IMG/VR virus record: IMGVR_UViG_3300046007_005026
Location: 1-26,444 of that record
Length of the DNA: 26,444 nt
Direction: 5' to 3' (one strand)
From: a virus
In this document: in pieces, positions 17,554 through 23,094 of the stretch
How the letters are laid out: every line of letters begins with the position of its first letter
Position numbering within the stretch: position 1 is the first letter of the stretch
The notes under the pieces: generated by a model
Database searches by the model: none
What the model was told of the DNA's origin: nothing
What the model saw: the letters and a program-made list of their open reading frames with translations, nothing else
Program-made: the position numbers and the translations under genes

Positions 17554-17985
17554 GTGAAGGTGCAAGGCGAGTTTCAGTTGCCGGTTTTCCCGTTGATCGG
17601 GGAGTGGACGAAGCGTGGGTTGTGCCGGGAGAAAGTCCTTGCGGGCGAGGCGCATCCTGACGATTGGTTCCCGGTGCGGGGCGCCCCGATTGAGAGCATC
17701 CGTCGTGCGGTTGCTATCTGCAATGCGTGCGAAGTGATTGACGAGTGTCGTGCTTGGGCGGTGGAGAACAACGAGTACGGCATTTGGGGCGGGCTGACGA
17801 GCAAGCCGTTGGCTCGGATGCGGCTGGTCACGGACCGTAAGTGTGTGCAATGCGAGCAGCATTATGCGATTGCGGATGATGAGACTGCGACCGCATCGTT
17901 CTGTTCGGAGGAATGCCGCCGGTTGCGTCGCAACGAGCAGAAGCGGAACAACAGTTTGGACCGTAAGGCTAGGGGCCTGCGATGA
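17554..17985 (+). CDS. WhiB-family Fe-S regulator fused to a C-terminal zinc finger
   Basis: A 143-aa protein with a GTG start at 17554. The WhiB cluster ligands are C24, C56, C59 and C65 (C-x31-C-x2-C-x5-C), followed by the family G(I/V)WGG turn (GIWGGL, 76-81) and a basic segment. WhiB proteins bind a [4Fe-4S] cluster and the primary sigma factor to alter transcription. They are restricted to actinobacteria and their phages, which fixes the host group. Residues 97-121 add a second Cys4 motif (C-x2-C-x16-C-x3-C), and the end is basic. That C-terminal finger is unusual for a WhiB. The next WhiB gene overlaps its stop (ATGA). Confidence 0.8.
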   Translation: MKVQGEFQLPVFPLIGEWTKRGLCREKVLAGEAHPDDWFPVRGAPIESIRRAVAICNACEVIDECRAWAVENNEYGIWGGLTSKPLARMRLVTDRKCVQCEQHYAIADDETATASFCSEECRRLRRNEQKRNNSLDRKARGLR

Positions 17986-18302
17986 GCGACGAGTACCTGG
18001 CCGACTGGTACGGGTCGTTGCCCCGGCCCGGGTGGTGGGACGAAGCGAAGTGTGTTGGTGAGGATTGGCGTAAGTTTTTCACTCGGCACTCCAAGGTCTA
18101 CAAGACACATTGTTCTAAGTGTTCGGTAGTCGATGATTGTTTGGTGTATGCGCTACGCCATGAGATGGACTTGAAGAATGGGCGTGCGGGCGTGTATGGC
18201 GGCATGACACCTACCGAACGGCATGAGTTTGGACGGTCGTTGAAAGATGCCGGGGTTAGGATCGGCACCGAATACCGTCTGGATTTGAGGGTTGATGAAT
18301 GA
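17982..18302 (+). CDS. Second WhiB-family regulator
   Basis: A 106-aa protein. C24, C44, C47 and C53 give C-x19-C-x2-C-x5-C. The turn GVYGGMTPTER (70-80) replaces the usual GVWGG tryptophan with Tyr. The N-terminus is Trp-rich (WYGSLPRPGWWDEAKC). It overlaps both neighbours by ATGA. Two adjacent, quite different WhiB proteins suggest separate regulatory targets or timing. Phage WhiB proteins such as TM4 WhiBTM4 are known to down-regulate host WhiB2 and can cause superinfection exclusion; whether either protein here does so is unknown. Confidence 0.8.
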   Translation: MSDEYLADWYGSLPRPGWWDEAKCVGEDWRKFFTRHSKVYKTHCSKCSVVDDCLVYALRHEMDLKNGRAGVYGGMTPTERHEFGRSLKDAGVRIGTEYRLDLRVDE

Positions 18303-22231: not shown

Positions 22232-22546
22232 TCATACCTCCAGGGCGTCGTTGATGTAGGTGCGGGCCAGGTGGGGCCAGTCGATCCGCGCCCAGGCGGT
22301 GTCCAGGAGATCACGGTAAAGACCGGGGAGACTGTGCACCTGGTACTCAAAGCGGAGGCTACCGAAGTCTCCCTCTAGCGTCCGGGCGAGGTCAAAGGCC
22401 GCGCACTCCGGGTCGTCCGGGTGTTGTTCGATTGCCTCGCTGGCGAGGGTGCTGACCCGCAGTTGGTCCGCGTAGTCGTTGCCGAGCCAGAGGGCGACCA
22501 GCCAAGTCTCCCGGTTGAGCCAGCCGTTGTAGGTGTTCTCATTCAT
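22232..22546 (-). CDS. Phage protein of the MNENTYNGWLNRETW type
   Basis: A 104-aa protein. ATG 22546 (not an upstream ATG at 22579) is preceded by GGGAGGAATCA. The start MNENTYNGWLNRETWLVALW is a motif found at the beginning of many phage and plasmid hypothetical proteins. The rest is helical and acidic (RVSTLASEAIEQHPDDPECA, DTAWARIDWPHLARTYINDA). It is widespread but uncharacterised. The tRNA-like RNA at 22590-22672 lies directly upstream on the same strand, so the two may share a transcript. Confidence 0.7.
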   Translation of the reverse strand: MNENTYNGWLNRETWLVALWLGNDYADQLRVSTLASEAIEQHPDDPECAAFDLARTLEGDFGSLRFEYQVHSLPGLYRDLLDTAWARIDWPHLARTYINDALEV

Positions 22547-22589: not shown

Positions 22590-22672
22590 TGGTGGAGCCG
22601 TCGGGAATCGAACCCGAGTCCTCAACCGTTCCGGCGTGCGGTCTTACGATTGAGTCGAACCCTCGCGGCCCC
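22590..22672 (-). ncRNA. tmRNA-like tRNA domain lacking a tag reading frame (83 nt, encoded CCA)
   Basis: On the minus strand the RNA folds completely. Acceptor GGGGCCG (22672-22666) pairs 7/7 with CGGCTCC (22600-22594), with one G-U. D-loop CGAGGGTTCGA includes the tmRNA signature GGNTTCGAC. Helix 2, CTCAATCGT (22654-22646), pairs 9/9 with ACGGTTGAG (22629-22621), one G-U. The helix-2 loop is only 16 nt (22645-22630). The T-arm is TCGGG-TTCGATT-CCCGA (22617-22601), then discriminator A and CCA. In full tmRNAs helix 2 encloses ~250-350 nt with the tag ORF and pseudoknots; here that is absent. No 7-nt anticodon loop on a 5-bp stem can be drawn, so an ordinary tRNA is unlikely. Confidence 0.6.
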
Positions 22673-22688
22673 GAATGCTGGGGTCTGA

Positions 22689-22771
22689 CCCCCGAGTCCC
22701 GGCCACCACAGCGGGACCCGGGGGAGCCTGCCGCCCGCCGCATGATGGCGTGCGCCCCAGCAGGGCAGGCT
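22689..22771 (-). other. Two adjacent strong stem-loops just upstream of the tmRNA-like RNA
   Basis: On the minus strand, AGCCTGCC (22771-22764) pairs 8/8 with GGCAGGCT (22732-22725). CCCCCGGGTCCCG (22724-22712) pairs 13/13, one G-U, with CGGGACTCGGGGG (22701-22689) across a 10-nt loop. An alternative short hairpin GGGGTC-A-GACCCC overlaps the second stem at 22680-22692. The first stem begins at the stop codon of the gene at 22771, so it may act as a terminator or as the 5' processing region of the RNA. Confidence 0.5.
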
Positions 22772-23094
22772 TACCCCTCGTCAATGATCGTTGTCTTCCG
22801 GTTCCAATCGGGGTGCCGCCACCGGGGGTGGCCCGGACCGGCGAGCCAGCGGCGGTCGATGCGGTGGAACGTCTGCCCGGTGTCGGGGTTGTGAAGCGTG
22901 ACCGACCAGGACATGATCCCCTCGCCGGGGGTGGCGATCCACGGGGCGGGGACGAACATCTCGCCGCCGTAGGTCACGGTGTCGGGCGGGGCGTCGGCCA
23001 CCGGGCGGCGTGCCGGTCGGCGGTCGGGTCGGGTCTGGCCGTGCGCCTCGTTGATTGCGGCGGTGACGGCGGTGAGGGTTTCGCGAATGTCCAT
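22771..23094 (-). CDS. Hypothetical protein with Trp/Gly-rich C-terminal domain
   Basis: A 107-aa protein. GGGAGGAATGAATC precedes ATG 23094. The N-terminus is a helix (MDIRETLTAVTAAINEAHGQ) followed by a basic Pro/Arg linker. Residues ~40-107 form a beta-rich domain: TYGGEMFVPAPWIATP, MSWSVTLHNPDTGQTFHRID, then GHPRWRHPDWNRKTTIIDEG. Other frames over this stretch give arginine/proline-rich translations without such structure, so this frame is chosen. No family recognised. Confidence 0.6.
   Translation of the reverse strand: MDIRETLTAVTAAINEAHGQTRPDRRPARRPVADAPPDTVTYGGEMFVPAPWIATPGEGIMSWSVTLHNPDTGQTFHRIDRRWLAGPGHPRWRHPDWNRKTTIIDEG

Follow-up and report, generated by a model that had tools for sequence, protein, structure and literature searches.

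Phage-encoded tmRNAs that consist of the tRNA-like domain (TLD) alone have been known since 2014, when the ssrA gene of mycobacteriophage DS6A was published as "TLD only" (tmID 11587; Hudson et al., 2014, PMC4131195). A tmRNA catalogue from 2025 holds nine "standard, no CDS" entries among 97,179 tmRNAs and names one phage example (PMC11915505). CDS-less organelle tmRNAs (mitochondria, RF02544; Mallomonadaceae plastids, ~65 bp) are likewise cut down to the charging and SmpB-binding part (PMC11915505). A similar design exists in the laboratory: in TLD constructs, the 5′ 25 nt and 3′ 34 nt of a Thermus tmRNA are joined by UUCG (PDB: 2CZJ; a TLD is also present in 4ABR), helix 2 is shortened and closed by a small hairpin, and the constructs bind SmpB and EF-Tu.

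Here we describe a predicted phage-encoded TLD-only tmRNA ("mini-tmRNA" or mini) of 83 nt on the minus strand at positions 22590–22672 of a viral contig of 26,444 bases, the whole of which was analyzed and is called the window below. With standard bacterial and phage tmRNA (RF00023) the mini shares an acceptor stem with G3·U70 and A73, a stemless D-region with the motif GGNTTCGAC, helix 2 and the T arm, whereas the mRNA-like region, resume codon, tag and pseudoknots are missing and the length is 83 nt instead of 230–400 nt. It is like DS6A, which is known here by its published description, in being a phage-encoded tRNA-like domain with little else and no tag coding region, but its family numbers ~100 distinct members across many phages and shows conservation of the inner hairpin. 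The organelle tmRNAs are cellular and not phage genes, the mitochondrial ones are permuted, and they lack this inner hairpin; the laboratory constructs are artificial, whereas the phage mini is natural and evolving. The novelty that the original prediction implied does not hold for the kind of molecule, for which DS6A is the precedent. In the literature searched, mostly outside subscription papers, we found no account of the mini family, and its size, covariation and age, the invariant charging signal, the inner hairpin and the phages with both a full tmRNA and a mini are apparently undescribed.

The RNA gene at 22590–22672 and its setting

The 83 nt match the Rfam tmRNA model RF00023 over its full length (model positions 1–374) with 65 bits and E = 1.9e-23, and 14 nt replace the 304 central model positions that hold the pseudoknots and the tag. 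This bears out the original prediction of a stand-alone TLD without an mRNA-like tag domain. The proposed scoring against tmRNA and tRNA models likewise came out for tmRNA, with RF00023 as the top-scoring overlapping match of its clan, tRNA (RF00005) included; the family model R1 described below gives 88.3 bits.

Read in order, the RNA is GGGGCCG CGAGGGTTCGA CTCAATCGT AAGA CCG CACGC CGG A ACGGTTGAG GAC TCGGG TTCGATT CCCGA CGGCTCC ACCA and holds a complete tRNA-like domain with a 7-bp acceptor stem, a T arm and a stemless D-region (all elements on the minus strand). The 5′ acceptor strand GGGGCCG (22666–22672) forms 7/7 pairs with CGGCTCC (22594–22600), which together with the encoded ACCA and its discriminator A occupies 22590–22600; one of these pairs is the G3·U70 wobble, not mentioned in the original prediction. 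The D-region CGAGGGTTCGA (22655–22665) has no D stem and, by direct reading as GGGTTCGAC and by family counts, agrees with the tmRNA motif GGNTTCGAC. Helix 2 is built from CTCAATCGT (22646–22654) and ACGGTTGAG (22621–22629) with 9/9 pairs, one of them U·G, and the T arm TCGGG-TTCGATT-CCCGA (22601–22617) has 5/5 pairs around the T loop TTCGATT. Base-by-base evaluation found every one of the elements originally listed (the three pair counts, the D motif, TTCGATT and the encoded CCA). Helix 2 had also been said to close on 16 nt; these nucleotides are not a plain loop, as they contain an A-rich internal loop followed by a 3-bp hairpin, CCG-CACGC-CGG (22631–22641), which caps helix 2 and covaries in relatives.

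Folding of the 83 nt gave a mixed answer: the minimum free energy structure (−35.9 kcal/mol) opens the T stem, and the listed TLD pairs can form at −32.2 kcal/mol (z = −1.9). Since the thermodynamic fold alone is equivocal, we relied on covariation as proof. Three other identities were considered and rejected. A canonical tRNA (RF00005) is contradicted by the clan ranking, the missing anticodon arm and ARAGORN, which called neither a tRNA nor a tmRNA in the window. The permuted two-piece tmRNA model (RF04321) yields a partial match of 39.3 bits, with a cut-off of 47, and the TLD halves stand in the standard order. A full trans-translating tmRNA would need pseudoknots and an mRNA-like region that carries the resume codon, tag and stop, all of which are absent from the window RNA.

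Two co-directional genes, 224 nt apart, flank the RNA gene: an upstream ORF of 107 aa with no Pfam match (22771–23094, minus strand), whose stop lies 98 nt before the RNA, and a downstream DUF7249/phrog_871 gene (22232–22546, minus strand), whose likely ATG start at 22546 behind GGGAGGA follows 43 nt after the RNA. A GC-rich leader (22673–22770, minus strand) adjoins the RNA on its upstream side and contains a strong hairpin, CCCCCGGGTCCCG/CGGGACTCGGGGG, with a z-score of only −1.06, which may be chance, a terminator or a processing site. The capsid of the window phage is ~40% identical to Streptomyces Beephvirinae capsids, and two adjacent WhiB-family genes, an actinobacterial hallmark, lie at 17554–18302 on the plus strand; together these point to a probable actinobacterial host. 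The search for close relatives of this phage found nothing at the DNA level and a single weak match among proteins, and the Beephvirinae that share its capsid at ~40% have no mini scoring above tRNA level.

A covarying RNA family in phages

A strict gapped DNA pattern (TTCGAC, 26–55 nt, GGAC and a T arm) matched 26 stretches in viral contigs and a looser pattern at least 120. As about 7 of the 26 strict matches recur among the 120 looser ones listed, extrapolation suggests very roughly 400 such loci in the viral collection. Among the matches listed, 102 distinct sequences of 78–98 nt were left after an acceptor-stem filter; two permuted tmRNAs (L003 and L025) that had matched the first pattern were left out. 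A covariance model built from 20 members (R1, members accepted at E ≤ 1e-8) collected 100 distinct members with bit scores of 49–98, while tRNAs, attP fragments and full tmRNAs all scored below 42. Five longer minis (L011, L014, L017, L062 and L076; ~92–98 nt) have a helix 2 that extends to as much as ~15 bp and does not end in the small inner hairpin, and they form a possible subfamily.

A similar pattern applied to 84,980 bacterial and archaeal species genomes returned 104 stretches and only ~7 minis; most of the others were tRNAs, chance matches or permuted tmRNAs hit in their 3′ part. The contig of one of these minis is identical with that of an IMG/VR virus record (L189/L135), and a second mini adjoins terminase- and portal-like genes in Parafrankia, as judged from ORF translations. 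The rarity in cellular genomes and the viral context of these two indicate that the RNA belongs to phages.

The 100 aligned sequences have a mean pairwise identity of 66%. Since the alignment was fitted to the structure, the counts lean towards pairing, and the controls nonetheless lie far below them: 97.5% of 2239 pair cells are paired, against 67.3% after shuffling and 39.5–51.2% with slid partners, and the covariation score is 0.690, against 0.129 and at most 0.089, respectively. Double changes occur in 17 of the 23 pairs, and the acceptor stem, helix 2, inner hairpin and T stem all covary strongly. For helix 2, where the original prediction had looked to compensatory changes in relatives, these were found: 94.2% of cells are paired and 7/8 pairs show double changes. 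The corresponding values are 96.5% and 3/3 pairs for the inner hairpin, whose preceding internal-loop A is kept in 97/100 relatives, and 99.8% of cells are paired in the T stem. An alignment-free control agrees, with a mean of 6.8 perfect pairs in helix 2 compared with 1.8 when partners are swapped between sequences. On this evidence, one RNA shape is under long-term selection in ~100 phages.

Several cultured phages carry a mini that is not annotated: the Streptomyces phages pSt2308, LuckySocke, GiJojo, BRock, Riptide, Wofford and Karimac, ~20 relatives of Karimac, and the Stenotrophomonas virus Jojan60. In Jojan60, a 46-aa "hypothetical protein" (L252:2889–3029) overlaps the 5′ part of the mini and was probably miscalled as a gene. 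Six distinct Streptomyces phages have the mini directly after tRNA-Val within a tRNA array; elsewhere, a tRNA lies within 1 kb of 23/133 mini loci, on the same strand in 22 of the 23 and in some cases only 1–7 nt away.

Three of these phages, Karimac (L249), Wofford (L254) and Riptide (L255), additionally encode a full tmRNA of ~270–280 nt at 11–13 kb from the mini. The full tmRNA is annotated as tmRNA in Wofford, and BE-cluster announcements reportedly count one tmRNA. Gilson, which belongs to their virus family, encodes a full tmRNA but lacks a mini above the cut-off; a swap of a Gilson-like full tmRNA for the mini in Karimac-type phages was considered and is wrong, as both are present. In the minis of the three phages, the D motif is worn (GGTGTGAC or GGTTAGATA) and TTCGAC is lost, but G3·U70, helix 2 and the inner motif are still present. 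Minis resemble one another more than the full tmRNA of their own phage, which argues for a separate lineage and against recent deletion of that tmRNA. As side observations, L079 has, 1.3 kb from its intact mini, another copy (L079:5–84) that scores less (41.5 bits) and has lost the T-loop TTCGA, and mycobacteriophage Bongo (L028:2302–2715) has a GOLLD RNA less than 1 kb from its full tmRNA.

Charging signal and possible functions

Pair 3 is G·U (G3·U70) and the discriminator is A (A73) in 100/100 relatives, and the window RNA has both. These are the recognition elements of AlaRS (PMC3968760). As they are invariant although acceptor pairs 4–6 show 5–6 pair types each among the same 100 sequences, charging looks selected, which strengthens the original suggestion that the RNA would be chargeable. 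We infer that members would act in the charged form, with EF-Tu, on the ribosome. The accompanying claim that it cannot tag agrees with the family, which has no conserved tag frame: a hidden mini-tag read from the conserved inner-hairpin GCA was rejected because in-frame stops are not enriched (13/71, compared with 9–10/71 in the other frames). An SmpB gene was absent from 47 phage or viral records, some of which may be fragments, and the control search was positive in 10 bacterial genomes. A phage-encoded SmpB partner was rejected accordingly, and a host partner is needed.

The best explanation, which we regard as probable, is a dominant-negative action on trans-translation, with the mini as a decoy that is charged by the host, bound by SmpB and EF-Tu, and blocks or replaces tagging. 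It would be transcribed jointly with the phage genes or tRNAs next to it and processed in the manner of a tRNA, host AlaRS would charge it with alanine, and host SmpB would bind it in place of an anticodon arm. Together with EF-Tu, it would then be a rival of host tmRNA, both for SmpB and at ribosomes that have stalled on broken mRNAs; it could take the nascent chain without offering a template, and the chain would receive no degradation tag. Phage products would thereby be protected, or host quality control blunted, during infection. In E. coli, tmRNA is strongly inhibited by a DS6A-like TLD, which may act by sequestering SmpB (PMC4131195; PMC11915505), laboratory TLD constructs of near-identical design bind both SmpB and EF-Tu and gain access to stalled ribosomes (PMC3929946, PMC3968760), and TLD fragments have been seen in stalled ribosomes (PDB: 2CZJ, 4ABR). 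In the family itself, the RF00023 match, the covariation, G3·U70/A73, the lack of a tag frame and of an own SmpB, and the placement in tRNA arrays are consistent with a decoy. Two points speak against it. The published inhibition worked without need for alanine charging, and the invariant G3·U70 exceeds the needs of a pure SmpB sponge; moreover, a mini that did nothing but block would be unexpected in phages with a full tmRNA of their own, of which there are at least three among the Streptomyces phages, their minis having a worn D motif. The window record is a 26-kb fragment, and other rescue genes may lie elsewhere in the window phage.

The invariant AlaRS determinants are better explained by an RNA acting on the ribosome, for instance if the charged mini with SmpB took over the nascent chain and freed the ribosome (by drop-off and peptidyl-tRNA hydrolase, or by template-free alanine addition), so that ribosomes used by the phage would be recycled with no host-style tag. 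In vitro, SmpB and a TLD fragment do make polyalanine in the absence of a template mRNA (PMC3929946), and tagless mitochondrial tmRNAs persist alongside SmpB (PMC11915505), but in E. coli a TLD-only RNA inhibited tmRNA and did not complement it (PMC4131195), and we regard such rescue as possible, if tentative. Its broadest form, a widespread phage RNA family in which the Ala-mini and host SmpB end or extend chains template-free (e.g. with alanine tails) as the phage's own route separate from host tagging, in some Streptomyces phages beside a full phage tmRNA, appears rather unlikely. Uses of a tRNA mimic outside trans-translation, as a decoy for tRNA-cleaving host defence or a structured control element of the downstream gene, would suit the position 43 nt upstream of a co-directional gene and the tRNA arrays of other phages; neighbor genes vary among members, however, such uses would call for neither the tmRNA-specific D motif nor helix 2 and there is no anticodon loop to cleave, which makes them improbable.

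Decay and integration are less probable still. The minis that lost TTCGAC in phages with a full tmRNA and the L079 copy without the T-loop motif could be read as signs that a phage tmRNA has decayed to a functionless relic, or that the mini is a tRNA pseudogene, a "reduced relic" having been one option of the original prediction. Intact pairing at 66% identity, G3·U70 in every member, the likeness of minis to each other instead of to the same phage's full tmRNA, and the empty ARAGORN result at the window RNA all contradict this; judged from covariation, a relic is refuted for the family, and we give it very little credence. Phages do integrate into tmRNA genes, and Nibb has a tmRNA 3′ half beside its tyrosine integrase, so the mini could stem from integration into the host tmRNA gene, as the half of the attachment site that the phage carries. 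A tyrosine integrase lies 557 bp from one mini and ~1 kb from another (L016 (G004), L099 (G023)); both minis are intact and might double as integration sites. However, attP cores retain only the 3′ half (PMC10865867), as in Nibb, whereas minis keep both halves of every helix and these covary, so an attP fragment alone is no explanation, as originally argued. Tyrosine integrases (PF00589) were found in only 7/40 mini-bearing viral records, at 3–92 kb from the mini apart from those two, and neither in the 26-kb window record nor in the 7 isolated mini phages searched, and isolated phages have the mini inside tRNA arrays. An attP remnant is largely refuted for the family and highly improbable as an account of the mini.

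The TLD-only form is thus common in phages, under clear structural selection, and has been overlooked in cultured Streptomyces and Stenotrophomonas phages. The minis are natural versions of the TLD constructs used in trans-translation studies, and the question of their function is directly testable with phages already in collections. If the decoy explanation is true, phages would have widely kept a small RNA whose target is ribosome rescue in bacteria.
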